A stretch of 64,000 nt of DNA, taken from Candidatus Pelagibacter communis (GTDB taxonomy: Bacteria > Pseudomonadota > Alphaproteobacteria > Pelagibacterales > Pelagibacteraceae). Positions 8,029 through 23,116 of this stretch are shown here, in pieces (positions within the stretch are counted from its first letter, which is position 1; each line of letters opens with the position of its first letter). The notes under the pieces are model-generated. The model was not told the origin of the DNA, searched no databases, and was given only the letters and a program-made list of their open reading frames with translations. The stretch covers positions 124,001-188,000 of the forward strand of contig NZ_CVSQ01000060.1 of assembly GCF_001180165.1 (NCBI RefSeq), written 5' to 3'. The position numbers and the translations under genes are program-made.

Positions 8029-8058
8029 TAACCTCCGTCGTTATCTAAACAGACGTTA
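8029..8058 (-). promoter_or_regulatory. Candidate xanthine-sensing leader RNA hairpin over the RBS
   Basis: On the mRNA strand the leader reads TAACGTC, a 12-base loop, then GACGGAGGTTA. TAAC (8055-8058) pairs with GTTA (8029-8032), and GTC (8052-8054) pairs with GAC (8037-8039). This leaves the 4-base bulge GGAG (8033-8036), which is part of the GGAGG ribosome binding site. A short imperfect hairpin with an asymmetric bulge holding the Shine-Dalgarno sequence, in front of a purine permease, resembles the NMT1 (xanthine-I) riboswitch as I recall it. I cannot check the consensus, so the class is tentative; the fold itself is visible. Confidence 0.4.
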
Positions 8059-8076
8059 CATTATTGGCTATGAATT

Positions 8077-8106
8077 AATATAAAAAAACTGATTAGTTTT
8101 GTACAA
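8077..8106 (-). promoter_or_regulatory. Sigma-70-type promoter of the NCS2 permease
   Basis: Reading the minus strand, TTGTAC (8101-8106) and TATATT (8077-8082) are 18 bases apart. This would start transcription near 8070 and give a leader of about 40 bases that holds little besides the RBS hairpin. Confidence 0.45.
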
Positions 8107-8165
8107 CTCCACTTTAGATAGTGAAAAAAACCTATAATGAGCAGATTTATTTTAATTAATAAATT

Positions 8166-8471
8166 TTAAAAGCAACCGTTTGAAACAAAACCCACGACTA
8201 TATTTTCTGAATTTATTTCAAATCTACGTTCACATGGAACAAGGTATTTTTTGCTATTATAAACAAACTCAAAATTGCCTTTAGCATTTTTAAAGTCTTC
8301 GTCTGGTTTTCCAAGCTCTATCTGAAGTTCACTAGCTGATTTTCCAAGAAATTTACTTAATTTTTCATTTTCCTTTTCAACAATAGCATCTGTTTTATCT
8401 TTAACAGTTTGACAGCCTGAAAAAAAAATTAATATAATTACAAGACTTATTGCTGATTTTAATTTTGACAT
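8166..8471 (-). CDS. Small lipoprotein of unknown function
   Basis: A 101-residue protein with a classic lipoprotein signal: basic MSKLK, a hydrophobic core, and lipobox FSGC with the acylated cysteine at about residue 20. The mature part has a helical, charged region (KEKDKTD-like, residues 23-45) and then SASELQIELGKPDEDFKNAKGNFEFVYN, followed by two cysteines near the end (PCERRF and NGCF). The LGKPD segment with a following short beta region recalls SmpA/BamE-like small outer-membrane lipoproteins, but I would not assign it. Its start is divergent from the deaminase gene, with 126 bases between. Confidence 0.7.
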   Translation of the reverse strand: MSKLKSAISLVIILIFFSGCQTVKDKTDAIVEKENEKLSKFLGKSASELQIELGKPDEDFKNAKGNFEFVYNSKKYLVPCERRFEINSENIVVGFVSNGCF

Positions 8472-8597
8472 AAGTTTAAACTAACATTTTTCGTTTCACA
8501 AATTATTAACTTTTAAGTTGTATAAATAATTTATTTCTTATTACTTTTAAGTTTAATTATAGTAACAATTGTGTTCTTTATTTGATGATCCAAGCAT

Positions 8598-9188
8598 ATG
8601 AATGAAAAAGCCCTAGAAAAGATACTAAATATATTTTTAAAAGAAGTTTTGCCCTTAACTGAACAAGGTGTTGCCAAAGGTAGTAAAATATTTGGTGCCG
8701 CAATAATTAAAAAAGAAGATTTATCTCTTGTAGCTGCAGAAACAAACAATGAAATAGAAAATCCATTGTGGCATGGTGAGATGCATACTCTTAAAAAATT
8801 TTATGAATTAGATGCAAATACAAGACCAAAAGAAAAAGACTGCATGTTCTTAAGTTCACATGAGCCTTGCAGTATGTGTTTGAGTGCAATCACATTTTCT
8901 GGCTTTGATAATTTTTATTATTTGTTTCCATATATTGCCACAAATGATGAATTTAATATTCCACATGATTTAAATATACTCAAAGAAGTATTTAAAATTA
9001 ATGATGGAGAATATAATAAAGAAAATTCCTATTGGAAAAGTCAGAATATAAATTTACTTATTGAAAATTTACCTTCTTCAAAAAAAGAAAAAATTTTAAA
9101 CCAACTAAACGAAATTAAAAAAAAATATCAAAAATTATCAAATCAATATCAGGAAAATAAGGATGGAAATTCTATACCATTAAATTAA
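8598..9188 (+). CDS. Zinc-dependent nucleoside/nucleobase deaminase, CDA fold
   Basis: This 196-residue protein has the cytidine-deaminase-superfamily zinc site: His59-Gly60-Glu61 (WHGEMHT) and Pro90-Cys91-x-x-Cys94 (HEPCSMC), with the glutamate as proton shuttle. The HGE and PCxMC pattern resembles guanine deaminases and tRNA/nucleoside deaminases, but the C-terminal 90 residues are divergent and end in a lysine-rich helix. The stop lies 3 bases before the ABC transporter ATPase start, so it is the first gene of a deaminase-ABC transporter operon and probably acts on the imported compound. A second, more typical guanine deaminase lies at 15321-15791. Substrate is unknown. Confidence 0.75.
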   Translation: MNEKALEKILNIFLKEVLPLTEQGVAKGSKIFGAAIIKKEDLSLVAAETNNEIENPLWHGEMHTLKKFYELDANTRPKEKDCMFLSSHEPCSMCLSAITFSGFDNFYYLFPYIATNDEFNIPHDLNILKEVFKINDGEYNKENSYWKSQNINLLIENLPSSKKEKILNQLNEIKKKYQKLSNQYQENKDGNSIPLN

Positions 9189-9191
9189 TTA

Positions 9192-10682
9192 ATGAATACA
9201 AACCTTAAAATTTCAAATGTAACTAAAATATATCCTGGGTGTGTTGCAAACGACAATGTTTCTCTGGAATTTAATAGTGGTAAAATTTATGCCCTTCTTG
9301 GAGAAAATGGTGCTGGAAAATCTACACTAGTTAAAATTCTATCAGGCGTCATCATTCCTGACGAAGGTAAAATTTATTTAAATGAAAATAATCTAAAGCT
9401 TAATTCGCCATTGGATGCAAAAAAAAATGATATCGGAATGGTATTCCAGCATTTTAATCTTTTTGAAACATTGTCCGTATTTGAAAACTTAATAATAGAC
9501 TCAGATGAACAAAGGGAAAGTTTAAGAGAAAAAATTGATACAATTATGAAAAAATATAATTTTTCAATTGATCTTGATATTCCTATTCTAAATCTATCAG
9601 CAGGTCAAAAACAGAAAGTGGAAATAATAAGATGTCTAATAAGGAATCCAAAAGTTTTAATTATGGATGAACCAACATCTGTATTAACAGAACAAGAAAC
9701 GAGTGAATTATTCTTATCTTTGAAAAAATTTTCAGAAGAAGGAATTTTAATTATTTATATTACACATAAACTAAAGGAAGTTATGCAGCTTTGTGATGAG
9801 GTTGCTGTAATGAGAAGAGGAAAGTTAGTTTCTGTAAGTGAAATAAAGAACGAAAATATTGAGTCACTTGCTAACAAAATGGTGGGTCAGAACCTTAAAA
9901 CAATTAAGAAAAAAAAAGCAAAAACTTCATCAGATCAATTAATTAAAATAACTAATCTTAATTTTACAAGTGAAGATCCTTTTGAAACAAATTTAATGGA
10001 TATTAATTTTTCTGTTAATCGAGGGGAGTGTTTAGGAATTGCTGGTATATCAGGAAACGGTCAAAGTGAATTATTTCAAGTATTAAGTGGTGAAATTATT
10101 TCGGAAAAAAAATCTATAGAATTTAATAATAATTACATAGGAGATTTAAATCCTCAAGAAAGAAGAGAATATTTGATGGCCTTTTCTCCAGAGGATAGGC
10201 TTGAGCAGGCTGCAATTCCACAAATGAAAATTTTTGAAAATGTAGCTCTAAACAATTTTAAATCATCAAATTTTTTTAATAATGGATTAATAAACGAAAA
10301 CAAAATTAAAGATCATTCCAAAAAAATAATTTCAGATTTTAATGTTAATACGGACAACATTGAATTAAAAAGCCAATTTTTGTCCGGAGGCAATCTTCAA
10401 AAATTAATTATTGGAAGAGAATTAATAACTTCTCCAGATTTATTAATTTGTTTTAATCCAACTTGGGGTCTAGATGTTGGAGCAATAAATTATATCCACG
10501 AAACATTGATAAGAATCAATGAACAAAATAAATCAATTATATTAATATCTACAGACACTGATGAGTTATTAAAATTAAGTGATAAAATTTCAGTAATTCA
10601 TAAAGGAAAATTGTCAAAAATTATGAATGCTGAAGAAGTTACCTCTGAAAAACTTGGGATTCTAATGGGAGGAGCAAATTGA
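9192..10682 (+). CDS. BMP-family nucleoside ABC transporter, ATP-binding protein
   Basis: A 496-residue fused double ATPase. The first domain has Walker A GENGAGKST (37-45), signature LSAGQKQKVEI and Walker B VLIMDEPTSVLT. The second has the degenerate GISGNGQS loop, signature LSGGNLQKLI and a weakened Walker B (DLLICFNPTWGLD), as is usual in this class (NupA/YufO, RbsA-like). It drives uptake of nucleosides or purines with the two permeases and the BMP binding protein downstream. The next gene overlaps its stop by 4 bases (TTGA). Confidence 0.9.
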   Translation: MNTNLKISNVTKIYPGCVANDNVSLEFNSGKIYALLGENGAGKSTLVKILSGVIIPDEGKIYLNENNLKLNSPLDAKKNDIGMVFQHFNLFETLSVFENLIIDSDEQRESLREKIDTIMKKYNFSIDLDIPILNLSAGQKQKVEIIRCLIRNPKVLIMDEPTSVLTEQETSELFLSLKKFSEEGILIIYITHKLKEVMQLCDEVAVMRRGKLVSVSEIKNENIESLANKMVGQNLKTIKKKKAKTSSDQLIKITNLNFTSEDPFETNLMDINFSVNRGECLGIAGISGNGQSELFQVLSGEIISEKKSIEFNNNYIGDLNPQERREYLMAFSPEDRLEQAAIPQMKIFENVALNNFKSSNFFNNGLINENKIKDHSKKIISDFNVNTDNIELKSQFLSGGNLQKLIIGRELITSPDLLICFNPTWGLDVGAINYIHETLIRINEQNKSIILISTDTDELLKLSDKISVIHKGKLSKIMNAEEVTSEKLGILMGGAN

Positions 10683-11743
10683 TTAAAATCGTAAAACGAG
10701 ATCAGCCATCAAGAGCTATTTTTTTCTTTACTCCTGTGTTAGCTATTTTTCTAACATTAGTAGCTGGAGGTTTAATTTTTTTTATTTTAGGTTTTAAACC
10801 ATTTGAAGCTCTTAAATTTTTTTTCATAGTTCCAATTGCAGATAAATATGGTTTCAGTGAATTGCTATTAAAAGCAACACCTCTTTGTTTAATTGCAATA
10901 GGTTTATCTTTTTGTTTTAAAAGTAATAACTGGAATATTGGAGCCGAAGGGCAATTAACTTTCGGGGCGATAGTTTCAGGGGGAGTTGCATTATTGTTTT
11001 ATGAGCAAGAAGGTTTTTATATTCTTCCAATAGTAATTTTAGCTGGTGCAATTGGTGGTATGCTTTATGCATCAATACCTGCAATCTTAAAAACTTACTT
11101 TAATACAAATGAAATATTAGTAAGTCTTATGTTGGTATATGTTTCAAAATTAATTTTGGACTATCTTGTTGTTGGTCCTTGGAGCAATCCAGAAGGATTT
11201 AATTTTCCTGAAACCAGACAGTTCAGTGACTCTGCTAAACTTCCGTTATTATTTGAAGGACTGAGAATTCACGCGGGAATATTTTTAGCTTTAGCTGCGG
11301 TGGTTATCAGTTGGTTTGTTTTTTATAAAACTTATTTAGGGTTCCAAATGAAAGTTTCAGGTTTTAGTTTAAAGACAGCAAAATATGCTGGATACAAAGG
11401 TAAAAAAATGATCGTCCTCGTTTTTCTAATAAGTGGTGCTTGCGCAGGTTTAGCTGGAGTTGGAGAAATAACTGGACCTATTGGACAGCTTCATAGAGAA
11501 ATTTCTCCAGATTATGGTTTTACTGCTATAATTGTAGCGTTTTTGGGTCGTTTACATCCTGTTGGTATCATCTTTGCATCACTAGTTGTTGCAATAACTT
11601 ATTTGGGTGCTGAAACAGCTCAAATATTTATGCAAATTCCTAAATATACTGGTCAGGTTTTTCAAGGAATGATTTTATTCTTTCTTCTTGCATCAGATTA
11701 TTTACTTTTTTTCAAAATTAAATTTATAGGTTCAAAAAAATGA
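10679..11743 (+). CDS. BMP-family nucleoside ABC transporter, permease 1
   Basis: A 354-residue membrane protein with about 8 to 10 hydrophobic segments. It has the NIGAEGQLTFGAI motif of the BPD_transp_2 family and the cytoplasmic loop AKYAGYKGKKMI that contacts the ATPase. It corresponds to NupB/YufP-type subunits. It starts with TTG inside the stop of the ATPase gene, and its own stop overlaps the next ATG by 4 bases, so the three genes are translationally coupled. Confidence 0.9.
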   Translation: MIKIVKRDQPSRAIFFFTPVLAIFLTLVAGGLIFFILGFKPFEALKFFFIVPIADKYGFSELLLKATPLCLIAIGLSFCFKSNNWNIGAEGQLTFGAIVSGGVALLFYEQEGFYILPIVILAGAIGGMLYASIPAILKTYFNTNEILVSLMLVYVSKLILDYLVVGPWSNPEGFNFPETRQFSDSAKLPLLFEGLRIHAGIFLALAAVVISWFVFYKTYLGFQMKVSGFSLKTAKYAGYKGKKMIVLVFLISGACAGLAGVGEITGPIGQLHREISPDYGFTAIIVAFLGRLHPVGIIFASLVVAITYLGAETAQIFMQIPKYTGQVFQGMILFFLLASDYLLFFKIKFIGSKK

Positions 11744-12672
11744 TCATCGATATAAATTTTATTGGACTGATAATTGCATCAATAATGGCCTCCGCTGTTC
11801 CTTTGATCCTAGCGTCCTGTGGTGAACTGATTACAGAAAGATCCGGTGTTCTAAACCTTGGTGTTGAAGGAATGATGATCATCGGCGCTATATCAGGCTT
11901 CGCACTAATGACAGTGACAGGAAGTTTAATTATTGCAATTTTTGGGGCAATGTTAGCTGGAGTTCTTATTTCAACTATTTTTGCATTCCTGACTCAAACA
12001 TTAATCACTAATCATGTTGCTACTGGTTTAGCGCTTACCATATTTGGAATTGGTATTTCTGCGATGATAGGAAAAAATTTTGTAGGTATTCCTGGAAAAG
12101 AGTTTCCTGTTTTATTTGAAGGTTTAAAAGACACAATACCACTTTTAGGTCCAATATTATTTGGACATTCAATTGTTTTTTATTTTGCTTTTGCCCTTCC
12201 CTTCATAACTAGCTATTTTTTAAAAAAAACGAAAATTGGATTAATTGTAAGAGCTGTAGGAGACTCACCTGAGTCTGCATCTAATCAAGGAATAAATGTT
12301 AGGCTAGTTCGTTACGCTTGTATACTTTATGGAGGCGCAATGAGTGGACTTGCTGGCGCATATTTATCCATGATTTATACTCCTCAGTGGATTGAAAATA
12401 TGACAGGTGGAAGAGGTTGGATCGCATTGGCTCTGGTGGTTTTCTCAACGTGGAACCCAATAAAAATTTTGATTGGTGCTATGATTTTTGGTGGCTTAAC
12501 AATTATTCAGTTCCATATGCAAGCAATTGGAGTAAGAATTCCTGTGCAATTTTTAACAGCTCTACCTTACATCGTTACAATAATAGTTTTAGTTGTAATT
12601 TCTCGTGATAGTAGAAAAATAAGACTAAGTACTCCTAGTTCATTGGGGAAATCTTTTCATAAAGACAATTAA
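11740..12672 (+). CDS. BMP-family nucleoside ABC transporter, permease 2
   Basis: A 310-residue inner-membrane subunit of the BPD_transp_2 family. NLGVEGMMIIGAISGF corresponds to the family's glycine-rich motif near the N-terminus, and VRAVGDSPESASNQGINV is the ATPase-contact loop. It pairs with permease 1 as a heterodimer (NupC/YufQ type). It begins in an ATGA overlap with the previous gene. A 78-base gap containing a hairpin separates it from the binding-protein gene. Confidence 0.9.
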   Translation: MIIDINFIGLIIASIMASAVPLILASCGELITERSGVLNLGVEGMMIIGAISGFALMTVTGSLIIAIFGAMLAGVLISTIFAFLTQTLITNHVATGLALTIFGIGISAMIGKNFVGIPGKEFPVLFEGLKDTIPLLGPILFGHSIVFYFAFALPFITSYFLKKTKIGLIVRAVGDSPESASNQGINVRLVRYACILYGGAMSGLAGAYLSMIYTPQWIENMTGGRGWIALALVVFSTWNPIKILIGAMIFGGLTIIQFHMQAIGVRIPVQFLTALPYIVTIIVLVVISRDSRKIRLSTPSSLGKSFHKDN

Positions 12673-12692
12673 TTTAAAAATAATCATTTTTT

Positions 12693-12712
12693 TTTAGATA
12701 ATTTAATCTAAA
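12693..12712 (+). other. Intercistronic hairpin before the binding-protein gene
   Basis: A 7-base-pair stem, TTTAGAT (12693-12699) with ATCTAAA (12706-12712), has a 6-base loop and is followed by TTTAATTTTATT. It lies between the permease and BMP binding-protein genes. It could stabilise the 5' end of a processed binding-protein mRNA or act as a weak terminator. The stem is AT-rich, so it is only a modest candidate. Confidence 0.35.
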
Positions 12713-12750
12713 TTTAATTTTATTAAAAAATCAAAAGGGGAAATAAATTT

Positions 12751-13821
12751 ATGCATAAATTTTTAATTCGTTCTTTCGTCTCTTCTTTAGTTTTAATATT
12801 TACATTAACTGTAGCTGCAGTTGCCAAAGATGTTAAAGCAGCATTTGTTTATATTGGTCCAACTGGTGACCATGGATGGACATATCAGCATGATGTAGGT
12901 AGAAAAGCTGTTGAAGCTGCCGGATTTAAAACAACTTACGTAGAAGGTGTTCCAGAAAGTGCTGATGCTGAGAGGGTTCTTAGACAATTAGCTAACTCTG
13001 GTCATGACGTTATCTTTACAACTAGCTTTGGATATATGAATCCAACTAACAAAGTTGCAAAAGAGTTTCCAAATGTAAAATTTGAACATGCTACTGGATA
13101 TAAAAGAGAACATCCAAATGTTTCTACATACGCAGCTAGATTCTACGAAGGTAGAACTATCTTAGGAACAATTGCTGGAACTATGACAAAATCAAATGTT
13201 ATTGGTTATGTTGCATCTTTTCCAATTCCTGAAGTTATCAGAGGTATCAATTCATTTACTTTAGCAGCTCAAAAAGTTAACCCAAATATTAAAACTAAAA
13301 TAGTTTGGGCTTTCACTTGGTATGATCCAGGTAAAGAAGCAGAGGCAGCAAAAGCTTTAATTGATCAGGGTGCTGATGTAATTGCTCAACATACAGATAG
13401 TACTGCTATTGTTCAAATAGCTGAAAAAGCTGGAGTATATGCTTTTGGACAAGCAAGTGATATGGATAAGTTTGCTCCTAAAGCTGTACTGACTTCAGTT
13501 GAAAACAATTGGGGCCCATATTACGTAGACAGAGTTAAAGCTGTAGCGAACGGTACATGGAGCCAAAAAGATACTTGGCATGGTATTGGAGACGGTATGG
13601 TGGTGATATCAGATTTAGATTCACAAATGCCAGCTGACCTGAGATCAAAAGTTAAAAAACTTCAAGCAGATTTAGCATCTGGTAAAGTTCATTCTTTCAC
13701 GGGACCAATTTATGACCAGAAAGGTAATTTAATGGTAGCAGAAGGAAAAACTGCAGATGATGGAATGCTTGCAGGAATGATGACTTACGTTAAAGGTGTT
13801 GAAGGAGATATACCTAAGTAA
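12751..13821 (+). CDS. BMP-family ABC transporter substrate-binding protein
   Basis: A 356-residue periplasmic protein with a signal peptide (residues 1-25, ending TVAAVAKD) and the BMP/PnrA fold: AAFVYIGPTGDHGWTYQHD, ESADAERVLRQLANSGHDVIFTTSFGY, and later GAVL-type strands such as KAVLTSVENNWG. The family binds nucleosides or purines; no lipobox is present, as usual for periplasmic forms in this group. It is preceded by AAAAGGGG at a suitable distance and ends the operon at a strong terminator. Its codons are richer in GCT, GGT and CCA than those of its neighbours, which fits high expression (an impression, not computed). Confidence 0.92.
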   Translation: MHKFLIRSFVSSLVLIFTLTVAAVAKDVKAAFVYIGPTGDHGWTYQHDVGRKAVEAAGFKTTYVEGVPESADAERVLRQLANSGHDVIFTTSFGYMNPTNKVAKEFPNVKFEHATGYKREHPNVSTYAARFYEGRTILGTIAGTMTKSNVIGYVASFPIPEVIRGINSFTLAAQKVNPNIKTKIVWAFTWYDPGKEAEAAKALIDQGADVIAQHTDSTAIVQIAEKAGVYAFGQASDMDKFAPKAVLTSVENNWGPYYVDRVKAVANGTWSQKDTWHGIGDGMVVISDLDSQMPADLRSKVKKLQADLASGKVHSFTGPIYDQKGNLMVAEGKTADDGMLAGMMTYVKGVEGDIPK

Positions 13822-13843
13822 CCAGTTTTCATTTAAAAATTTT

Positions 13844-13873
13844 AAAAGGCCGGTTTTTTAACTGGCCTTTTTT
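13844..13873. terminator. Bidirectional intrinsic terminator
   Basis: AAAAGGCC (13844-13851) pairs with GGCCTTTT (13864-13871), with inner GTT/AAC pairs, and a T run follows on the plus strand. On the minus strand the same stem ends in TTTT. It closes both the ABC transporter operon and the convergent uraH-to-phosphoribosyltransferase operon. Confidence 0.88.
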
Positions 13874-14396
13874 ATGTCTGATGTTTTTTTTTGATTTCTT
13901 CAATCCTTAATTCTTCATAAATTTCGAAGGGCTGTACTATCCAAGGATTATCAGGAAGTCTATTTGCACAAAAGTCTGGCTCAAATGTTGATTTCTTTTT
14001 TTTAAATAATGTTGCGGTTTTAATGTCTTCTATTTTATCCTTAATGGGTTCGTATTTTTTTAACCAATCTATACTTTTGTTAAAAGTGATTCCTGTGTCA
14101 GATAAATCATCACATAAAAGTATTTTTCCACCCATATTAGGTGCTATCGAACTCATTTCTCTTGAAAACACAATATCACCTTGCTCATCCTCTACTCCCT
14201 TACCACTGTAAGACTCAACTGCAAGATACGCACATTTTAATTTAAAAATTCTACTTAAAACATCTATCATCGGCGCTGCTCCACGCATGATACCAACTAG
14301 TATTGTTGGTTTATATCCGCTCTCATCAATTTGGATTGCTAGTTTCTCAACAGTTTTATTATACTCGTCCCAGCTAACAATCATTTTTTCAGACAT
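13872..14396 (-). CDS. Purine phosphoribosyltransferase (xanthine/hypoxanthine type)
   Basis: A 174-residue type I phosphoribosyltransferase with the PRPP-binding motif ILLCDDLSDTG (92-102), the GIMRGAAPM loop (35-43) and a C-terminal base-binding segment NPWIVQPFEIYEE. Similar enzymes (Gpt-like) convert xanthine, guanine or hypoxanthine plus PRPP to the nucleotide. It is the last gene of the catabolic operon, 16 bases after puuD, so it offers a salvage exit from the pathway. The base preference cannot be fixed by eye. Confidence 0.8.
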   Translation of the reverse strand: MSEKMIVSWDEYNKTVEKLAIQIDESGYKPTILVGIMRGAAPMIDVLSRIFKLKCAYLAVESYSGKGVEDEQGDIVFSREMSSIAPNMGGKILLCDDLSDTGITFNKSIDWLKKYEPIKDKIEDIKTATLFKKKKSTFEPDFCANRLPDNPWIVQPFEIYEELRIEEIKKKHQT

Positions 14397-14412
14397 AATT
14401 TTTTATATCTAG

Positions 14413-15321
14413 TTATTTAAATAATAAAACTAAAACTGCAAGAACGATAAGTGCTATTATTGAAGAAATTAAAATATACAACCTATGAATGTTTCTTCCT
14501 CTTAAATTAAAATAATGTCTTGCTACTCCAGAAATAACAGCAATCACACATAATATTAACCAATTATATTGGTGATAAACTAAAAAGCTCGAATGCCCAG
14601 AAAGCATTATAAACAAAACTAAAAAAGTTGAATAATTATTGTGAATTGATCTTTGTTTAGCTGCTAAAGACAAACTCATATCAAATTTTTCACCTCTTTC
14701 GCTGCTACTAATTATATTCATTTGATTAGGGATGATTACCGTGAAAACATTGCCAAACATATTGGATCCAATTATTAATCCAACACTTAAAATTGCAAAT
14801 TTTGGTCCAAATAATTTTGTAAGTCCAAATGATACAACTGCCAGCAAAATTATTCCCGTGGATATAAATAAAATATTATTCTCAATTAATTTTGATTTAC
14901 ATAAAAGATCGTAAACAAACCAAGAAATAATCAACGATAAAAGTGAGATAATAATTGCATAACTAGGGGGTATTAACAGAACACGCTTATCAACCATTAA
15001 TACACCAGCGTTATAATAGTAAATCACAACTAAGAGCAACATTCCAGTTACAAAAGTTAAGTAACTTTGCCATTTAAAAATTACTAATCTATTTAAATAA
15101 TCCTGTGGTGGTGAAGTTTTTAACCTTGAAAGTTTATAAAAAAAACCAGAATGCATCAGATATCCTTCTCCATCGACATCATCGCTTGTTACATTTTTAT
15201 TTAAATTATTATCTAAATAATTAAATAAAAAACTATTACCTACCCATAATATTGCAAATAATACATGGCCCCATCTTAAAATAACCTCTAACCATTTTAT
15301 TGTATAAGGTAAAAATTCCAT
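14413..15321 (-). CDS. puuD: Urate hydroxylase PuuD, membrane domain without cytochrome c tail
   Basis: This 302-residue protein has about 8 transmembrane segments and the landmarks of PuuD, the membrane-bound enzyme that oxidises urate to 5-hydroxyisourate. They are KWLEVILRWGHVLFAILWVGNSF near the start (given here only in outline), GEGYLMHSGFFY (51-62) and FKWQSYLT (82-89). Typical PuuD proteins are about 400 residues, with a C-terminal class I cytochrome c; here the protein ends after the last membrane helix (VLAVLVLLFK) and has no CxxCH. ATG at 15321 is preferred over TTG one codon upstream; it shares a base with the guaD stop (TGATG). A separate cytochrome c gene is at 22793-23116. Confidence 0.88.
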   Translation of the reverse strand: MEFLPYTIKWLEVILRWGHVLFAILWVGNSFLFNYLDNNLNKNVTSDDVDGEGYLMHSGFFYKLSRLKTSPPQDYLNRLVIFKWQSYLTFVTGMLLLVVIYYYNAGVLMVDKRVLLIPPSYAIIISLLSLIISWFVYDLLCKSKLIENNILFISTGIILLAVVSFGLTKLFGPKFAILSVGLIIGSNMFGNVFTVIIPNQMNIISSSERGEKFDMSLSLAAKQRSIHNNYSTFLVLFIMLSGHSSFLVYHQYNWLILCVIAVISGVARHYFNLRGRNIHRLYILISSIIALIVLAVLVLLFK

Positions 15322-15791
15322 CAATATTTAATTTTATCTACTTTTTTATCCCAAATTTCAAATGCTTTTAAAGCTTCATCTCTAAGCATTTGTACCATTT
15401 TAATTTTCCTATCATCTATTTTTTTCGGAATTTCTGTATAAATAAAAGAGTCATCGAAATCTATATTTTTTGCATCTTCTCTAGTGTTTGCATAATATAT
15501 TTTATCTAATCTTGACCAATAAATTGCTGAAAGACACATCGGGCAAGGTTCACAAGATGTATAAATCTCACATCCAGAAAGATCGAAAGTATTTAAATTT
15601 TGACAGGCTTCTCGAATTGCTACTATTTCTCCATGTGCAGTTGGATCATTTGAAGAAGTAACTTTATTAGAACCCTCTGCAATAATCTTGTCATTCTTAA
15701 CTATAACGCTTCCAAAGGGACCTCCAATAGTATTCGCGCTATTAATTGATAGTTCAATGGCCCTTGCCATAAATTTTTTTTTATCTTCCAT
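15321..15791 (-). CDS. guaD: Guanine deaminase (CDA fold)
   Basis: A 156-residue enzyme with the zinc site His53-Gly54-Glu55 (TAHGEIVAIREA) and Cys83-x-x-Cys86 (CEPCPMCLSAIYW), and the C-terminal segment of Bacillus-type guanine deaminases. It hydrolyses guanine to xanthine and ammonia, feeding the xanthine dehydrogenase encoded just upstream. Its start overlaps the xdhB stop by 11 bases. Length and motifs are normal. A tRNA adenosine deaminase (TadA) is the main alternative, but the operon argues strongly for guanine. Confidence 0.88.
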   Translation of the reverse strand: MEDKKKFMARAIELSINSANTIGGPFGSVIVKNDKIIAEGSNKVTSSNDPTAHGEIVAIREACQNLNTFDLSGCEIYTSCEPCPMCLSAIYWSRLDKIYYANTREDAKNIDFDDSFIYTEIPKKIDDRKIKMVQMLRDEALKAFEIWDKKVDKIKY

Positions 15792-18084
15792 TTAAATTTT
15801 TAATTTTGTTGATACTCATTAAAATTCTTTCAGGTGTTGCCGGTGCATTAAGTTCTGGTGCAAACTGGTAATTTCCAATCGAAGCAACTGCGTCTTTAAT
15901 TGCATAAAAAACACTCATAGCTAGCATCAAAGGGGGCTCACCAGTTGTTTTTGCTTTATTAACAACTTTTTCTTTATTTAATCCCTCTTTAAAAATTTCT
16001 ACATTAAATTTTTTTGGAATATCACTTACTGCAGGTATTTTGTAAGTCGATGGAGAAAAAGTTGTAATCTGACCATCTGACTTCCACTTTAATTCCTCTA
16101 TTGTCAGCCATCCCTGTCCTTGCACAAAACCGCCCTCAATCTGACCTAGTTCTAGTGCTGGATTTATTGGTTTGCCGGCATCGTGTAAGATATCCACTCT
16201 TTCCAATATATTTTCACCCGTTAATGTATCTACAGTTACTTCCGAAACAGCTGCCCCATAACAAAAGTAATAAAAAGGTCTACCTCTAAATTTTTTTTTA
16301 TCAAAATTAATTTTTGGTGTTGAATAGAAACCTGATGATGAAAGAGATATTCTATTTAAATATGCCTCTTGAATAATGCTTTTAAATTCAAATTGTCTGT
16401 TTCCAAATATTATATATTGATCTTTATATACTGCCTCTTGATTGTAGATCTTATATTTTTTCTTAATAAATTTTTCTAAATTTAATTTAATTTTAGCTAC
16501 TGCATTTAGAGCTGCTGCTCCATTAAGGTCTGTAGTTGACGAAGCGGCGCTAGCTGAAGTATTTGGAACCTTGGCTGTATTTGTTGATGAGATATGAACT
16601 AAATTATATGGTAATCCCAAAGAATTTGCCACTAACTGAGCAATCTTTGTGTGAGTCCCCTGACCCATTTCAATTCCTCCATGATTCAAATGAACACTTC
16701 CATCTGTGTAAATATGAACTAAGGCTCCAGCTTGATTTAAATGAATTGTAGTAAATGAAATACCAAATTTTAAAGGTGTAATAGCTATACCCTTCTTTTT
16801 AAATTTATTTTTTTCATTAAATTTTCTTATATCGGAATATCTTTTCTTATAATTAGATTTATTTTCTAATTTTTTAAATATTTCATTAATAACATTATCT
16901 TCAACTGTCATTCCATAATGAGTTACATTCCTTTTATCTTTTTGATAAAAATTTTTCTTTCTGACTTCTATAGGATCTTTTTTTAAGTACCTTGCGATAT
17001 TGTCTATAATATTCTCTATAGCCATCATCCCTTGATTTCCACCAAAGCCTCTAAATGCAGTTGATGTTGGAATATTTGTTTTACATAAATTATTTGTTAC
17101 CTCGATATCTGAAATGTAATATGCATTGTCCACATGAAGCAAAGCTCTCTCGTTTATTGCAGCTGATAAATCGGGTGACATTCCACAATTTGAGGATAAG
17201 TTTATTTTTAATCCTTCAATAATTCCTTCATCATTAAAACCAACTTCATATTCAGATAAAAATTCATGTCTTTTACCAGTCAATATTATATCATCATCTC
17301 TATCTAATCTTAGTTTGACTGGCTGTCCTGATTTTTTTGCCAACAACGCACAAATACACGCTGTCATGAAATTTGTTTCTTTTCCCCCAAACCCACCTCC
17401 AATTCTTCTAACTTCTACATTTATTGAATTACTTTTTTGATTAAACATTTTTGCAATTAATTGTTGAGTTTCTGATGGATGTTGTGTTGAACTATAAACT
17501 AAAAAATTATCATCTTCCTTAGGAACAACGAAAGCTGCCTGGCCTTCTAGATAGAAGTGCTCTTGGCTTCCAGTTGTAAAATTTCCTTTTAAATTATTTT
17601 TTGAATTTTTTATTTTTTTAGAAGGGTTGCCTTTTTTAACTTTTCTAGGTTTAAATAGGAATTGCTTCTTATTTAAAGCTTCTTTTATTGTAATAATTGG
17701 TTTTAAATCTTTATAGGTAACTTTAGCTTTTAATACTGCCTTTCTAGCAAGTTCTGTGGTTGTAGCAGCTACAGCAAATAAAGGCTGACCAAAAAACTCT
17801 ACTTTTTTTTCTGGAAAGATTGGATCACCTTCAAAAACAGGACCTACGTCATTCCTACCAGGGATGTCTCTTTGAGTAACTACCGATATTACTCCATCAC
17901 TTTTTTTTACTTCAGTGAGGTCTATTTTTTTGATTATTGCATGAGCTTTTTTACTTAAACCAATAGCGCCATAAATTGTGTTTTTTGGCTCATTAATATC
18001 ATCGGTATACTCTGCATATCCACTCACATGTTTATACGCACTATCATGTGGTCTTATTTCCTCAATATAGTTCTCTTTGCTCAT
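15781..18084 (-). CDS. xdhB: Xanthine dehydrogenase, molybdenum-binding subunit
   Basis: A 767-residue molybdopterin subunit of the xanthine dehydrogenase family. It has the a/b hammerhead N-terminal domain, GGGFGGKET, STAFRGFGGNQG, the cofactor loop GGIEMGQGTHTK and the catalytic base Glu716 in TTGEPPLML. It hydroxylates hypoxanthine and xanthine to urate at the molybdenum centre. It abuts xdhA exactly (TAA then ATG), as expected for a two-subunit enzyme. Length is that of bacterial XdhB. The cofactor-sulfurating XdhC is not in this window. Confidence 0.93.
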   Translation of the reverse strand: MSKENYIEEIRPHDSAYKHVSGYAEYTDDINEPKNTIYGAIGLSKKAHAIIKKIDLTEVKKSDGVISVVTQRDIPGRNDVGPVFEGDPIFPEKKVEFFGQPLFAVAATTTELARKAVLKAKVTYKDLKPIITIKEALNKKQFLFKPRKVKKGNPSKKIKNSKNNLKGNFTTGSQEHFYLEGQAAFVVPKEDDNFLVYSSTQHPSETQQLIAKMFNQKSNSINVEVRRIGGGFGGKETNFMTACICALLAKKSGQPVKLRLDRDDDIILTGKRHEFLSEYEVGFNDEGIIEGLKINLSSNCGMSPDLSAAINERALLHVDNAYYISDIEVTNNLCKTNIPTSTAFRGFGGNQGMMAIENIIDNIARYLKKDPIEVRKKNFYQKDKRNVTHYGMTVEDNVINEIFKKLENKSNYKKRYSDIRKFNEKNKFKKKGIAITPLKFGISFTTIHLNQAGALVHIYTDGSVHLNHGGIEMGQGTHTKIAQLVANSLGLPYNLVHISSTNTAKVPNTSASAASSTTDLNGAAALNAVAKIKLNLEKFIKKKYKIYNQEAVYKDQYIIFGNRQFEFKSIIQEAYLNRISLSSSGFYSTPKINFDKKKFRGRPFYYFCYGAAVSEVTVDTLTGENILERVDILHDAGKPINPALELGQIEGGFVQGQGWLTIEELKWKSDGQITTFSPSTYKIPAVSDIPKKFNVEIFKEGLNKEKVVNKAKTTGEPPLMLAMSVFYAIKDAVASIGNYQFAPELNAPATPERILMSINKIKNLNGR

Positions 18085-19521
18085 TTAATTTACTCTTGAT
18101 AACTTATTAGAATTTATTTCTACAAAACATTTCATCAATAAATTTTTTGCTATCTCTAGTCTGTATTCTTTACTAGCTCTCATGTCTCCAATAGGACTTA
18201 AATCTTTTTCTAAATATTTTTTTGCTTGATCAAAAGTGTTGATGGTAAGAGGTTTATTTTTAAGAATTTTTTCACATGTTTTAGCTCTTTTTGGCACAGC
18301 AGCCATACCTCCATATGCAATATAAACCTCCTTAATTTTATTATTATTAATCTCAAAATTAAAAGATCCACAAACAGATGAAATATCATCATCAAATCTT
18401 TTTGAGATCTTAAATGCCTTAAAAATATTTTTCTTAAATAATGGTATTTTTATTGAGTGTATAAATTCATTGTTTTTTAATTTAGTTTTTCTGTAATCAA
18501 GAAAAAAATGATTTAAAGGTAATACTTTTCTTTTATTAAAACTTTCAATTAAAACTTCTGCATTTAAAGATAATAGAATTGGCAGTGAGTCGCCAATTGG
18601 AGATGCAGTTGCAATATTGCCACCTATAGTTCCAACATTTCGAATTTGAACAGATCCATATCTTTTTAGAACCGAATAAAAATCTGGATAATATTTTTTA
18701 ATTTCTTTTTCAAATTTTATTAATGGTGTAGCGGAACCAACTTCTAAATAATTTTTACTTACTTTTATAAAATCTAATTCATTAATTTCTTTTAAATCAA
18801 TTATAAAAGGAATTTCTTTTCTTTCTTTTGTAACTTTTAAAGATAAGTCAGTTCCACCAGCAAGAAAACTAAACTTAGAATGTTTTTTAATTATACCTTT
18901 TAAATCTTTAATATTTTTTGGTGAAAAATAGATTTTATCATCTTTTTTAATATAAACATTTTTTGGTTTAATTTTTTTTAATTGCTGAATAACTTTATTT
19001 TTATTTTTAGAAAATTGATCATTTTTGTTTATCTTATTTAAACTTTTGGCCGCATCCATTATAGGTCTATAACCAGTACAACGACATAAATTACCTGATA
19101 TAGAATCTGTTATTAATTCATTACTAAGTTTTTTGTTATTTTTAAACATTGAAAATAAAGACATAACAAATCCTGGGGTGCAGAAACCACATTGGGAACC
19201 ATGAAATTTAACCATCGCATCTTGCACTGGATGAAGTTTTCCATTTTGAGAAACTAAATCTTCAACAATTATAAGTTGCTTACCATTCAATGATGGTACA
19301 AATGAAATGCAAGAATTAATTGCTTTATATTCGATTTTATTATCGACTAATTCACCTAAAACAATTGTACATGCGCCACAGCCACCCTCTGAACATCCCT
19401 CTTTAGTTCCAGTCTTTTTTAATTCAGTTCTAATATAATTAAGTAATGTTTGGTTTGGATCTGGATTTTTGATTACTATAAGCTTGTCATTTAATAAAAA
19501 TTTAACAGAACTCGATATCAC
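18085..19521 (-). CDS. xdhA: Xanthine dehydrogenase, iron-sulfur and FAD subunit
   Basis: A 478-residue subunit. The plant-type [2Fe-2S] domain has Cys43, 48, 51 and 71 (EGCSEGGCGAC), and the second cluster has Cys111, 114, 146 and 148 (CGFCTPGF and GNLCRCTGYRP). The FAD domain follows, with FLAGGTDLSL and RNVGTIGGNIATASPIGDS. It passes electrons from the molybdenum site in XdhB to NAD+. It starts with GTG, directly after the uraH stop. All eight cluster cysteines are present, so the enzyme looks functional. Confidence 0.93.
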   Translation of the reverse strand: MISSSVKFLLNDKLIVIKNPDPNQTLLNYIRTELKKTGTKEGCSEGGCGACTIVLGELVDNKIEYKAINSCISFVPSLNGKQLIIVEDLVSQNGKLHPVQDAMVKFHGSQCGFCTPGFVMSLFSMFKNNKKLSNELITDSISGNLCRCTGYRPIMDAAKSLNKINKNDQFSKNKNKVIQQLKKIKPKNVYIKKDDKIYFSPKNIKDLKGIIKKHSKFSFLAGGTDLSLKVTKERKEIPFIIDLKEINELDFIKVSKNYLEVGSATPLIKFEKEIKKYYPDFYSVLKRYGSVQIRNVGTIGGNIATASPIGDSLPILLSLNAEVLIESFNKRKVLPLNHFFLDYRKTKLKNNEFIHSIKIPLFKKNIFKAFKISKRFDDDISSVCGSFNFEINNNKIKEVYIAYGGMAAVPKRAKTCEKILKNKPLTINTFDQAKKYLEKDLSPIGDMRASKEYRLEIAKNLLMKCFVEINSNKLSRVN

Positions 19522-19872
19522 TTAACTACCTCTATAAGTAGAATAACTCCAAGGTGAAACAAGTAAAGGAACATGATAATGCTGCGAAGGATCTGAAATA
19601 CCAAATCTGATAACAACATCATCCAAGAATGGTACATCACTAGCTGAAGATGTATTTTTAAAATAATCACCAATATGAAAAACTAATTCATATTTACCCT
19701 TAATAAAAACATCTCCCTCTGCTAATGGTGAATTAGCTCTACCATCTTCATTGAGTTTTGTTGACGTTAATTTTTTTCGTTCTGAATTATTAATATAAAA
19801 TAACTCAACTAAGATACCTTTGCCAGGTTTACCAGAATACACATCTAAAACATGAGTTGTGAGCTTTGTCAT
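19522..19872 (-). CDS. uraH: 5-hydroxyisourate hydrolase (transthyretin-like)
   Basis: A 116-residue transthyretin-related protein: THVLDVYSGKPGKGI at the N-terminus carries the active-site histidine, the middle has GKYELVFHIGDYF, and the C-terminus is the diagnostic YRGS tetrapeptide. It hydrolyses 5-hydroxyisourate to OHCU, the step after PuuD. It is the first gene of the minus-strand operon and lies 47 bases from the divergent uraD start, so the two halves of the pathway share one regulatory gap. The ATG at 19870-19872 has no obvious Shine-Dalgarno sequence. Confidence 0.93.
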   Translation of the reverse strand: MTKLTTHVLDVYSGKPGKGILVELFYINNSERKKLTSTKLNEDGRANSPLAEGDVFIKGKYELVFHIGDYFKNTSSASDVPFLDDVVIRFGISDPSQHYHVPLLVSPWSYSTYRGS

Positions 19873-19919
19873 AAAATTATAGTATCATTTAATTTCAAAC
19901 TTAAATTATTTAAAGTTAT
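19873..19919. promoter_or_regulatory. Divergent promoter gap between uraH and uraD operons
   Basis: Only 47 AT-rich bases separate the two starts. On the minus strand TATAAT (19876-19881) sits 3 bases before the uraH ATG, with TTAAGT at 17-base spacing, which would give a nearly leaderless mRNA. On the plus strand TATAGT (19878-19883) overlaps it. No clear repressor palindrome is visible and no regulator gene is adjacent. Confidence 0.35.
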
Positions 19920-20417
19920 ATGAGAACAATAGATAACATTAACGATCTTAACAAGTCTGATTTTTTGTCTGTATTTGGTAATGTTTTTGAAAAAACTGAA
20001 TCAGTTGCTATGGAAGCTTTTGAGTCAAGACCATTTAAAAACTTCGAAGATATTGTGTTTAAAATGCTTGATATTTATGAAAATTACGAAAACAATAAAA
20101 TTTTAGAGATTTTAAATGCACATCCTGAGCTTGCTGTAGCAAAAAAAATGACCTCTGAATCTATATCAGAACAAGCCTCTGCAAAATTAAACCAATGTTC
20201 TAATGATGAATATGAGGAATTTAAAAAATTAAATGCAGAATATAAAAAAAAGTTTAATTTTCCTTTTATAATTGCCGTAAAAGGTAAAGATAAAAATGAA
20301 ATTTTGAATAATTTTAGACAAAGAATACAAAGTGATGTAGAAAGTGAATTCCTTGAAGCAAAAAAACAAGTAAAAAAAATCGCAACCTTTCGTTTGAATG
20401 AAATAAACAAAAAATGA
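19920..20417 (+). CDS. uraD: OHCU decarboxylase
   Basis: A 165-residue helical protein that matches 2-oxo-4-hydroxy-4-carboxy-5-ureidoimidazoline decarboxylase, which gives S-allantoin. It shows the catalytic-histidine segment NAHPELA (His68), the SxxEQ-type SISEQASA and the C-terminal FPFIIAVKGKDKNEIL stretch. It opens the plus-strand operon and overlaps alc by 4 bases (ATGA). No peroxisomal or export signal is present. UraH and UraD next to each other make assignment secure. Confidence 0.92.
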   Translation: MRTIDNINDLNKSDFLSVFGNVFEKTESVAMEAFESRPFKNFEDIVFKMLDIYENYENNKILEILNAHPELAVAKKMTSESISEQASAKLNQCSNDEYEEFKKLNAEYKKKFNFPFIIAVKGKDKNEILNNFRQRIQSDVESEFLEAKKQVKKIATFRLNEINKK

Positions 20418-21400
20418 AAAAATTTATAAGTGCAAAAATGATTAACTTAGCAGATCCAAGAATTGGATCTAAAGTTATATTTAAGACTGATGATTTTTTT
20501 GCAGCCGCTCATAGAATATTAAGCGTCGAAACTCCAGTTTTTAAAGATGGACTATTTGACAAACATGGTAAATGGATGGATGGATGGGAAACAAGGAGAA
20601 GAAGATCAAAAGGTTTTGATTATTTAATTTTAAAACTTGGTAAACCTGGAAAGATATTTGATATAGACATTGACACAACACACTTCAATGGAAATCAGCC
20701 TACACATGCTTCTTTAGAGGGTTGCTTAAGTAAAACAAAGCCTAATAATAAAACAAAATGGATTTCTTTATTGGGCAAAAAAAAACTTGGGCCAAGCCAA
20801 AACCATGGCTTCAAATCAAAGAACAAATCTGTTTTTAATTATATAAGACTAAACATTTTTCCAGATGGTGGAGTTGCAAGACTAAGGCTTTATGGAAAAA
20901 TTGAAATGGAGAAAAACTTTTTAAATAACAAAACTATCAACCTTACATCTGTTTTAAATGGAGCATCAATTATTGGTTGTAATAATGAACATTTCGGCAG
21001 GGCTGAAAATATCATAGCACCTGGTAAAGGAAAAAATATGGGAGATGGTTGGGAAACAAGAAGAAGTAGAGGAAAAAACTTTGATTGGCTTATAATAAAA
21101 TTTGGAAAACCAGGATTAATAAAAAAACTAGAGATAGATACCCATCATTTTAAAGGAAACTATCCCGACAGTTGTTCAATTCAAACTGCAAGCATTTTAA
21201 AAGATCTGTCCAATAAATCAATTGTCAATAATTCAAAAAATTGGAAATTTATTTTAAATAAGTCAAAACTGTCAGCTCACAAGAAACATGTTTTTAAAAA
21301 ATTCTTAATTAAGAGAATTAAGGAAAATTATCTTAGAATAAATATCTATCCAGACGGTGGAATTTCAAGAATAAGAGCATTCGGAAATTTTGTAAGATGA
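20414..21400 (+). CDS. alc: Allantoicase
   Basis: A 328-residue protein made of two homologous jelly-roll halves. Each half holds DGWETRR (56-62 and 211-217) followed by FDYLILKLG or FDWLIIKFG, and each ends in PDGGVARLRLYG or PDGGISRIRAFG. That internal duplication is the allantoicase hallmark. It hydrolyses allantoate to ureidoglycolate and urea. Length is normal. It overlaps both neighbours by 4 bases, so uraD, alc and allA are translationally coupled. Confidence 0.95.
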   Translation: MKKFISAKMINLADPRIGSKVIFKTDDFFAAAHRILSVETPVFKDGLFDKHGKWMDGWETRRRRSKGFDYLILKLGKPGKIFDIDIDTTHFNGNQPTHASLEGCLSKTKPNNKTKWISLLGKKKLGPSQNHGFKSKNKSVFNYIRLNIFPDGGVARLRLYGKIEMEKNFLNNKTINLTSVLNGASIIGCNNEHFGRAENIIAPGKGKNMGDGWETRRSRGKNFDWLIIKFGKPGLIKKLEIDTHHFKGNYPDSCSIQTASILKDLSNKSIVNNSKNWKFILNKSKLSAHKKHVFKKFLIKRIKENYLRINIYPDGGISRIRAFGNFVR

Positions 21401-21888
21401 AAATAATAAAAGCAAAAAAAATTACTAAAAAAAATTTTTCTAAATTTGGTCAATTAATAGATACATCAAAAAAAAATCCTATAAATATTAATGATGGCTA
21501 TGCAAAAAGATTTGATAATTTGATAAACGTAGATGCATCAAAAAACAAAGGGAAAGCAATTGTTAGTATTTTTAAAGCAAAAAAAAGAAGGTTTCCTATG
21601 AAAATTGATATGATGGAAAAACATCCTTTAGGAAGCCAAGCCTTTATACCAATGGAAGATACAAAGTTTTTAGTATTTGTAGCACCAAAAGGAGATAAGC
21701 CGGATGTAAATAAAATCCAATCCTTTTTAGTCCCAAAACAAACTGGGGTTAATTACAATGCTGGTATTTGGCACTTTCCATTAATTTCTATGAAAAATAT
21801 GAATTTTCTAATTGTTGATAGAAAAGGAAAAGGAAACAATCTTGTTATTTATAAATTTAAAAAAGATAAAATTATTTTGAAAAAATGA
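21397..21888 (+). CDS. allA: Ureidoglycolate lyase
   Basis: A 163-residue cupin-like protein with the AllA pattern: an N-terminal KFGQLID, the metal-site region EKHPLGSQAFIPM, then VNYNAGIWHFPLISM and DFLIVDR-like NFLIVDRKG. It splits ureidoglycolate to glyoxylate and urea. The position between alc and puuE fits exactly. It overlaps both neighbours by 4 bases. Sequence is strongly lysine-rich near both ends, as in its neighbours. Confidence 0.9.
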   Translation: MKIIKAKKITKKNFSKFGQLIDTSKKNPININDGYAKRFDNLINVDASKNKGKAIVSIFKAKKRRFPMKIDMMEKHPLGSQAFIPMEDTKFLVFVAPKGDKPDVNKIQSFLVPKQTGVNYNAGIWHFPLISMKNMNFLIVDRKGKGNNLVIYKFKKDKIILKK

Positions 21889-22784
21889 AAAAAAAATACC
21901 CAAGAGATTTAGTGGGATATGGTTCCAAAAAAGTTAAGGTAAAATGGCCTGGTAATGCTAAGTTGGCTTTGCAATTTGTGCTTAATTACGAGGAGGGAGC
22001 AGAAAATTGTACTCTTCATGGTGATAAAACTTCAGAAGTATTTTTATCAGAAATTATAGGAGCAAAACCAATTAAAGGTCGACACTTAAATATGGAATCA
22101 ATTTATGAATATGGATCTAGAAGAGGTTTTTGGAGAATTCATGATCTATTTAATAAAAAGAAAATTCCACTTACTATTTTTGGAGTCGGTATGGCATTGG
22201 AAAGAAATAAAGAAGTTTGTTCGGCTATAAAGAAAGCAAATTATGAAGTTGCTAGTCATGGGTGGAGATGGATTGACTATCAAAATGTATCAAAGAAAAA
22301 AGAAAAGAATGATATGAAGCTTGCAGTAAAATCCATAAAAAAGATTTTTGGTAATCAACCTGCTGGTTGGTACACTGGTAGATGTAGTGAAAATACTCTA
22401 GATTTAGTAATTGATAATGGTAGTTTTTTATACTGTAGCGATACATACAGTGATGACCTTCCTTATTGGATAAAAAAAGGAAATAAAAAACAGCTAATGG
22501 TTCCTTATACACTTGATAACAATGATATGAGGTTTGCAACCAATCAAGGGTTTAATTCGGGTGAACAATTTTATAATTATTTAAAAGATAGTTTTGATGC
22601 CCTTTATGAGGAAGGAAAAACTTCACCAAAGATGATGTCAGTCGGCTTGCATTGTAGATTAATTGGAAGACCTGGTAGAATACAGTCTCTTAAAAAATTT
22701 TTGAATTACATCACAAAATTTAAGGATATTTGGATCTGCAAGAGAGTAGATATAGCTAAACATTGGATAAAAAATTATAGTTAA
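21885..22784 (+). CDS. puuE: Allantoinase PuuE (polysaccharide-deacetylase fold)
   Basis: A 299-residue protein beginning YPRDLVGYGSKKVKVKWP, which is diagnostic of PuuE, a metal-independent allantoinase of the NodB/polysaccharide-deacetylase fold unrelated to the amidohydrolase AllB. It opens allantoin to allantoate. NYEEGAENCTLHGD, ASHGWRWIDY, GWYTGRCSENT and SVGLHCRLIGRPGR are further family segments. It is last in the plus-strand operon. With it the cluster contains every enzyme from guanine to glyoxylate. Confidence 0.93.
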   Translation: MKKKYPRDLVGYGSKKVKVKWPGNAKLALQFVLNYEEGAENCTLHGDKTSEVFLSEIIGAKPIKGRHLNMESIYEYGSRRGFWRIHDLFNKKKIPLTIFGVGMALERNKEVCSAIKKANYEVASHGWRWIDYQNVSKKKEKNDMKLAVKSIKKIFGNQPAGWYTGRCSENTLDLVIDNGSFLYCSDTYSDDLPYWIKKGNKKQLMVPYTLDNNDMRFATNQGFNSGEQFYNYLKDSFDALYEEGKTSPKMMSVGLHCRLIGRPGRIQSLKKFLNYITKFKDIWICKRVDIAKHWIKNYS

Positions 22785-22792
22785 AATTTTTA

Positions 22793-23116
22793 TTATTGTT
22801 CCGCAGCTATAGAAGTATAGTGAGCAACTGCTTCTATTTCCTCATCAGTTAGTATACCCTCCATTGCGGGCATTACTCCTATACCGTTTCTAACTGCCAT
22901 TATAATTCTTTGAATATCAGGTCTAATTTCATTTAAATTTGGACCAACCATTGCGTTCGATCCAGCATCTGAGAGCATATGGCATGCTGCACAATTTCCA
23001 GTTCCCAGAAAAACTTCTTTTCCCTTATTAAACAATTCATCAGCATTAACGTGGGTTAATGATAAAAATATCAAAAATAATGATGTACCAAAGAAATTTA
23101 AAAATAATTTTTTCAC
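22793..23116 (-). CDS. Soluble class I cytochrome c, possible PuuD partner
   Basis: A 107-residue periplasmic protein with a signal peptide (about 1-25, ending HVNADE), one c-type heme site CAACH (42-46) and a candidate methionine axial ligand in GVMPAMEG (Met82 or Met85). The family carries electrons to terminal oxidases. It starts with GTG and sits 8 bases from the puuE stop in the opposite direction. Since PuuD here lacks its cytochrome domain, this protein could accept the electrons from urate oxidation. That link rests on position and on the missing domain only. Confidence 0.85.
   Translation of the reverse strand: MKKLFLNFFGTSLFLIFLSLTHVNADELFNKGKEVFLGTGNCAACHMLSDAGSNAMVGPNLNEIRPDIQRIIMAVRNGIGVMPAMEGILTDEEIEAVAHYTSIAAEQ

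Follow-up and report, generated by a model that had tools for sequence, protein, structure and literature searches.

A purine-degradation island of Candidatus Pelagibacter communis with a heme-less PuuD urate oxidase and a linked SorU-like cytochrome c

Where would the electrons of urate go in a bacterium whose urate oxidase lacks the heme domain of its family? This question is raised by a purine-degradation island in a stretch of 64,000 nucleotides from Candidatus Pelagibacter communis (contig NZ_CVSQ01000060.1, positions 124,001 to 188,000; hereafter the window). The island genes span positions 6705‒23116 and comprise an NCS2 permease, a deaminase with a BMP-type ATP-binding cassette (ABC) transporter, two operons, and a cytochrome c gene. 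A first-pass annotation of the window had taken the urate oxidase PuuD as ordinary, but its 303 residues do not include the heme domain of the family; likewise absent from that annotation was the identity of the last gene of the span, whose product is a cytochrome c preceded by a signal peptide (by eye). We consider, with a probability of roughly 0.6, that the island serves complete purine breakdown and that the urate electrons pass from the heme-less PuuD to a separate periplasmic cytochrome c.

PuuD of the window ends after the membrane domain, with a match to positions 2‒293 of the 295 in the PF06181 profile. As described in the paper that identified the enzyme, PuuD consists of a membrane domain and an invariant C-terminal cytochrome c (Doniselli et al. 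2015, PMC4562309). The Agrobacterium fabrum PuuD reported there (Atu2314) shares with the SAR11 protein the PF06181 (formerly DUF989) membrane domain, the purine operon context, and conserved residues, whereas the SAR11 PuuD has no C-terminal cytochrome c domain and is 32‒39% identical to the ten fused PuuDs aligned. A C-terminal cytochrome c domain with CXXCH is missing from the window PuuD and from every one of the 70 open reading frames (ORFs) checked, which came from 39 SAR11 genomes and genome G404 (the window, 30 + 38 loci with repeated genomes, and G404). Full-length PuuD was found in 39 of 297 Pelagibacteraceae genomes, as ORFs of 273‒303 residues with CXXCH in none of the 39; this count includes neither a contig-end match in G130 nor the fragments found in G126, G025, and G006. 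In a further set of 80 named loci, the top-ranking ones among 224, each PuuD is 95‒99% identical to that of the window and is 302 or 303 residues long (80/80). Since these loci were retrieved with window PuuD peptides, they represent only the window's own PuuD type. Some PF06181 match is present in 245 of the 297 genomes, mostly just a short partial relative; this relative, whose frames of about 200 residues match the profile in part, occurs widely in SAR11 and the class (e.g., G000:C51:22683-22949).

The picture outside SAR11 is different. In a class sample of 289 genomes, 73 of the 74 full-length matches outside SAR11 lie in open frames of 395‒765 residues, a distant match in G490 and fragments being uncounted. 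A C-terminal CXXCH was present in all 30 fused class PuuDs examined, and the remaining class matches were judged by frame length only. A phylum sample of 299 genomes, 11 of them also in the class sample, gave 98 of 99 full-length matches with 399‒555 residues, the remaining one (G763) being cut by a contig end. In an order sample of 197 genomes, the 26 full-length matches all belong to the window's genus, with frames of 299‒306 residues, and no full-length PuuD was found in the other family of the order. The sole class exception is G404, a non-SAR11 alphaproteobacterium with a 303-residue PuuD (L146:7771-8682, frame 308); CXXCH is absent both from its PuuD frame and from all three forward frames of the sequence that immediately follows. 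Within the samples scanned, the heme-less PuuD is thus characteristic of SAR11, with a single case outside it. In the literature searched on PuuD, urate oxidase, and Pelagibacter, which left supplements and most subscription journals outside, no title or abstract opening concerned a heme-less PuuD.

The membrane domain does not look degraded. His20 and His58 are present in 20 of 20 aligned PuuDs, including the heme-less ones, and His228 and His244 are nearly invariant; this conservation speaks against decay. We read the gene context around PuuD in 38 loci (L031‒L068), and it consists of purine genes. In a PuuD tree, the SAR11 proteins form one group (support 100/100). Since this tree is unrooted and has long branches, both a loss of the heme domain and an ancestry that predates the fusion are possible. 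A sequence search of the PDB with PuuD gave no credible match and hence no solved relative.

The gene at the end of the island encodes a class I cytochrome c of 107 residues, with a signal peptide recognized by eye. Both NCBIfam models and PDB sequence searches place it nearest to SorU, the cytochrome of the SorT/SorU sulfite dehydrogenase, although it falls below the SorU cut-off (85 against 100 bits); a SorT-linked SAR11 cytochrome scores 72.8 bits. Linkage was counted over those named loci in which PuuE is intact and followed by over 500 bases of sequence; there are 57 such loci, and the cytochrome is present in all of them. Three further loci (L197, L212, and L225) lack Alc, AllA, and PuuE yet retain a cytochrome 57‒61% identical beside UraD, indicating that it travels with the block of xanthine dehydrogenase (XDH) and PuuD rather than with allantoin breakdown.

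Gene content was compared in a panel of 51 genomes, hand-picked from the 297 Pelagibacteraceae scanned for PF06181. It consists of the window's own assembly G000 (804,609 bases in 62 contigs, 65.89% complete), 18 other PuuD-positive genomes of its genus (15 with the ABC-type island of the window and three without Alc, AllA, and PuuE), 10 of the 18 PuuD-positive genomes from the genera g3 and g6, and 22 genomes without full-length PuuD, mostly among the most complete (16 of the same genus and six others); the PuuD-positive genomes G268 and G014 lie outside it. SorT was found in none of the 15 genomes that carry the island cytochrome (91‒98% complete), nor in the 66% complete G000. Elsewhere it occurs in all three genomes of the other type in the genus, in four of the 10 g3/g6 genomes, and in three of the 22 without full-length PuuD. 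The related cytochromes examined in g3 and g6 stand beside SorT or in apparent sulfur-oxidation loci (gene names by eye). A count of cytochrome co-occurrence over all PuuD-positive genomes was dropped, since it is confounded by the three g1 genomes without allantoin genes and by g3/g6, in which such matches adjoin SorT or sit in sulfur loci; only window-type islands were used. A DUF1330 gene beside the island (23160‒23447) was also considered as PuuD-linked and dropped. All 18 g3/g6 loci have such a gene between PuuD and the phosphoribosyltransferase, but PF07045 occurs in 50 of 51 SAR11 genomes with or without PuuD, and the gene is thus probably unrelated to purines.

In the published topology, PuuD oxidizes urate on the cytosolic face and its cytochrome resides in the periplasm (PMC4562309), and for this reason we propose transfer from PuuD to a separate periplasmic cytochrome. 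The SAR11 PuuD, consisting of the membrane half only, is predicted to work like the fused enzyme. The two electrons of urate would cross the membrane from PuuD to a cytochrome c in the periplasm, for which the SorU-like protein of the island is the likeliest candidate, and would pass from there to the respiratory chain. The more specific proposal is a two-component urate oxidase made of heme-less PuuD and a recruited soluble SorU-type cytochrome, with the cytochrome as a non-homologous replacement of the heme domain or with PuuD as a survivor of the pre-fusion state. We hold this proposal tentatively, at slightly less than even odds.

Several results weigh against a dedicated cytochrome partner. 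The possibility that the island cytochrome is a split-off PuuD heme domain was rejected by model scores and by a tree: the cytochrome scored 4‒7 bits against a model built from the heme domains of 30 fused PuuDs and 93‒104 bits against one built from 12 further SAR11 cytochromes, the majority of which are linked to SorT or to sulfur genes, and the tree, which rests on few columns, separates it from the PuuD heme domains at 100/100. Its gene lies outside both operons, on the strand opposite to PuuE. No CXXCH gene was seen at 23 of the 38 PuuD loci, namely those without the ABC-type layout (15 read beyond UraD into the flank and eight cut before that flank), so that a linked dedicated cytochrome is no general need of a heme-less PuuD; one of these 23 loci, L062, has Alc, AllA, and PuuE, and the cytochrome was not seen there. 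Genome G040, from another genus, encodes a SorU-type cytochrome (45% identity), and it has no full-length PuuD and no SorT that was detected. An AlphaFold2 model of PuuD built with 27 close sequences reached a predicted local distance difference test score of only 42 and was unusable.

The SAR11 PuuD may instead deliver its electrons to the general periplasmic cytochrome c pool, the island cytochrome serving another oxidation, such as that of sulfite, and owing its position to history. The likeness to SorU points this way, as do the 15 loci of other layout that were read beyond UraD and show no heme gene nearby, and the related cytochromes that adjoin SorT or apparent sulfur-oxidation loci in such genomes. 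We regard this explanation as rather unlikely, given that no SorT was found in the 15 genomes of the window's clade and given the constancy of the cytochrome in complete islands and in the three loci without allantoin genes. In addition, full-length PuuD and SorT were both missing from 15 genomes of the genus; one of these has a cytochrome match at E = 1.7e-12 and three have one at E ≤ 0.001, and these matches are 31‒47% identical, against 75‒99% in the islands. It is quite improbable, in our view, that no cytochrome c is needed and that the membrane domain reduces quinone or oxygen directly, perhaps through a b-type heme on the conserved histidines. The conservation of the four histidines in the 20 aligned PuuDs and the g3/g6 loci without a linked cytochrome are compatible with such a route, but the impaired purine use of Sinorhizobium meliloti ccmC mutants reported in PMC4562309 points to a c-type heme in the fused enzyme.

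The pathway in which this step is embedded is complete. Every step from guanine to glyoxylate has one gene, and all named enzymes are intact ORFs with strong family matches (Table 1), as the first-pass annotation had claimed. Its two divergent operons were also borne out: they diverge from a 47-base gap, with the order UraH-XdhA-XdhB-GuaD-PuuD-phosphoribosyltransferase on the minus strand and UraD-Alc-AllA-PuuE on the plus strand. Both of its uptake systems are present as well, although the NCS2 permease falls just outside the start that it had given the island. In the predicted pathway, purine bases would be imported by the ABC system and the NCS2 permease; GuaD would convert guanine to xanthine and XdhAB xanthine to urate, which PuuD would oxidize. 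UraH and UraD would then yield allantoin, PuuE allantoate, and Alc with AllA glyoxylate and two urea. Xanthine oxidation would additionally yield energy.

By sequence, the deaminase encoded within the XDH operon resembles GuaD. It aligns with Bacillus subtilis guanine deaminase 1wkq over residues 5‒155 of 156, including the C-terminal tail, and is much further from TadA (best TadA chain, 8.9e-21) than from 1wkq (1.3e-47); its zinc motif is HGE, whereas 1wkq has HAE. XdhB aligns over its full length with Rhodobacter capsulatus XDH (9.5e-209). The residues that we take to form the active site of that enzyme (Glu232, Arg310, and Glu730) are all retained in the XdhB alignment, as judged by eye. 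The nearest structures to the BMP-family binding protein are 3s99 and AtzT, with homology across nearly the whole length. AtzT is reported to bind guanine at 0.11 µM and adenine at 2.5 µM (PMC6834077), and of the site residues given in that report, Ser97, Phe98, Glu165, and Trp194 are retained in the island protein, whereas Tyr45 is replaced by Trp and Asn218/Asn220 by His/Asp, the latter as in the Brucella protein 3s99 (by eye). The site of 3s99 has adenine modelled.

The purine-catabolism reading of the locus was correct, and it is not new, since the SAR11 purine-degradation island has already been published (Braakman et al. 2025, PMC11698098). That paper describes the operon gene by gene, with urea release and urease in about 5% of genomes. 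Its HIMB083-type operon holds the same genes: NCS2, purine deaminase 2, the ABC transporter, PPRT, PuuD, purine deaminase 1, XDH_Mo, XDH_FAD, hiuH, uraD, alc, ugl, and PuuE. The deaminase at 8598‒9188 is probably its purine deaminase 2. The figure legend there names both deaminases tadA, whereas we find the one in the XDH operon to be GuaD-like. The word cytochrome does not occur in its main text, and the heme-less PuuD and the linked cytochrome are additions made here. A further study (PMC12636525) reports xdhAB in two offshore genera, with urease in six of eight genomes of one, and tadA in purine-using genera; this tadA may be the GuaD-like gene of the island.

Cofactor sulfuration and urea breakdown, which the first-pass annotation had placed elsewhere in the genome, were located in relatives; G000, itself incomplete, shows neither. 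Maturation of XDH would fall to an XdhC pair whose genes lie outside the island or, in some relatives, within it. This pair, molybdenum cofactor (Moco) synthesis, and urease would all be expected in the window's own genome, although none of XdhC, moaA, and urease was found in its assembly, which is 65.89% complete. XdhC (PF13478 above cut-off) is present in 18 of 18 well-covered PuuD-positive genomes of the genus and in nine of the 10 g3/g6 genomes, one of the nine (G042) being a partial match, against four of 22 genomes without full-length PuuD (3/16 in the genus and 1/6 others). In SAR11 it is a pair of ORFs, XdhC_CoxI and XdhC_C (e.g., L038:16725-17740 and L145:9888-10897). TIGR02964 has no match in G000, and since the two ORFs of the relatives score 37 and 57 bits, far below its cut-off of 161.6, PF13478 was used as the XdhC model. 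The pair lies within the island region in five of the 15 genomes with an ABC-type island and in 20 of the 57 named loci. In G168, which encodes a cytochrome 99% identical to the window's, moaA and further Moco genes are found close to XdhC, and no CO dehydrogenase ORFs were seen beside the pair (both by eye). An absence of Moco synthesis had been named beforehand as evidence that would refute the purine reading, and no such absence is seen in the relatives of the genus; moaA above cut-off was found in 18 of 18 PuuD-positive genomes of the genus, seven of the 10 g3/g6 genomes, and 11 of the 22 without full-length PuuD. As a separate observation, one relative has a compact molybdenum region of about 13 kb (L129:2177-15383) with CO dehydrogenase-like and MobA-like genes (by eye), a split XdhC, an MsrP-like gene, moaA, and SorT with its cytochrome.

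The urease alpha subunit was found above cut-off in 12 of the 15 genomes with the window-type ABC island and in none of the others tested (0/35 with G000 set aside: 0/3 genus genomes without Alc, AllA, and PuuE, 0/10 g3/g6, and 0/22 without full-length PuuD). The Fisher value for this association (4e-9) overstates the evidence because the genomes are related. Urea is probably split by a urease encoded elsewhere in this clade, and purines would then serve as both nitrogen and carbon. That the island works mainly for energy and carbon, with urea released unused, seems to us unlikely: such release is what PMC11698098 infers for many SAR11, given its low urease frequency, and three of the 15 genomes with a window-type island, as well as G000, show no urease above cut-off, but the urease of the other 12, against none in the 35 further genomes tested, speaks against it, and the same paper ties the ABC transporter to nitrogen harvesting.

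Table 1 Features of the purine-degradation island in the window (by-eye readings are marked).
Feature	Position	Strand	Evidence
NCS2 permease, xanthine-permease type (PbuX-like)	6705..8027	-	PF00860 304.4 bits; TIGR00801 above cut-off; TIGR03173 410 vs cut-off 414.15
Second deaminase, cytidine-deaminase fold (CDA_A)	8598..9188	+	PF00383 40.8 bits; 1wkq weakly, 7.6e-6; HGE + PCxxC present (by eye)
ABC transporter ATPase, two ABC domains	9192..10682	+	PF00005 179.1 bits, 2 stretches
ABC permease A	10679..11743	+	NF047929 183.6 bits, under cut-off
ABC permease B	11740..12672	+	NF047928 180.3 bits, under cut-off
BMP-family solute-binding protein, purine-base type	12751..13821	+	PF02608 180.7 bits; 3s99 7.5e-120; AtzT 6pi5 1.8e-109
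Purine phosphoribosyltransferase (salvage branch)	13872..14396	-	PF00156 93.9 bits; listed NCBIfam HGPRT/XPRT models under cut-off
PuuD urate oxidase, membrane domain only	14413..15324	-	PF06181 283.8 bits (cut-off 26.9), residues 7-298 of 303; no CXXCH
GuaD guanine deaminase (cytidine-deaminase fold)	15321..15791	-	1wkq/1tiy 1.3e-47
XdhB, xanthine dehydrogenase molybdopterin subunit	15781..18084	-	TIGR02965 1114.7 bits (cut-off 849.5); 1jro_B 9.5e-209
XdhA, xanthine dehydrogenase 2Fe-2S/FAD subunit	18085..19521	-	TIGR02963 583.7 bits (cut-off 467)
UraH, 5-hydroxyisourate hydrolase	19522..19872	-	TIGR02962 127.2 bits (cut-off 87.45)
Divergent intergenic gap, 47 bases, common to both operons	19873..19919		ORF list
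UraD, OHCU decarboxylase	19920..20417	+	TIGR03164 162.1 bits (cut-off 96.25)
Alc, allantoicase	20414..21400	+	TIGR02961 392.8 bits (cut-off 277.9)
AllA, ureidoglycolate lyase	21397..21888	+	PF04115 169.3 bits (cut-off 23); under NCBIfam AllA cut-offs
PuuE, allantoinase	21885..22784	+	TIGR03212 485.8 bits (cut-off 424.6)
Secreted class I cytochrome c, SorU-like; proposed PuuD electron acceptor	22793..23116	-	PF13442 46.6 bits; NF052248 (SorU) 85 bits, cut-off 100; 4pw9_B 7.9e-20

Between the permease and the second deaminase lies a lipoprotein-like ORF of 101 residues (8166‒8471) with no Pfam match, and ORFs of similar size (judged by size only) occupy the same place beside many PuuD islands. 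The island variants in L031‒L068 apparently share one chromosomal slot, as seen from ORF size and order. Its borders are an apparent prolyl oligopeptidase/Hsp20 pair on one side and a group of DNA glycosylase, transporter, and MsrA genes on the other (names by eye). This arrangement suggests that block replacement at one chromosomal site lies behind the island variants.

The island bears out published work on purine feeding in a very abundant group of ocean bacteria, and close relatives show where the missing XdhC and urease are located. The interest of the heme-less PuuD is that the paper that identified the enzyme left the mechanism of urate oxidation open while arguing that the fused heme is essential (PMC4562309). 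If the two halves occur as separate proteins in a natural variant, each can be made on its own and the electron step tested with them.

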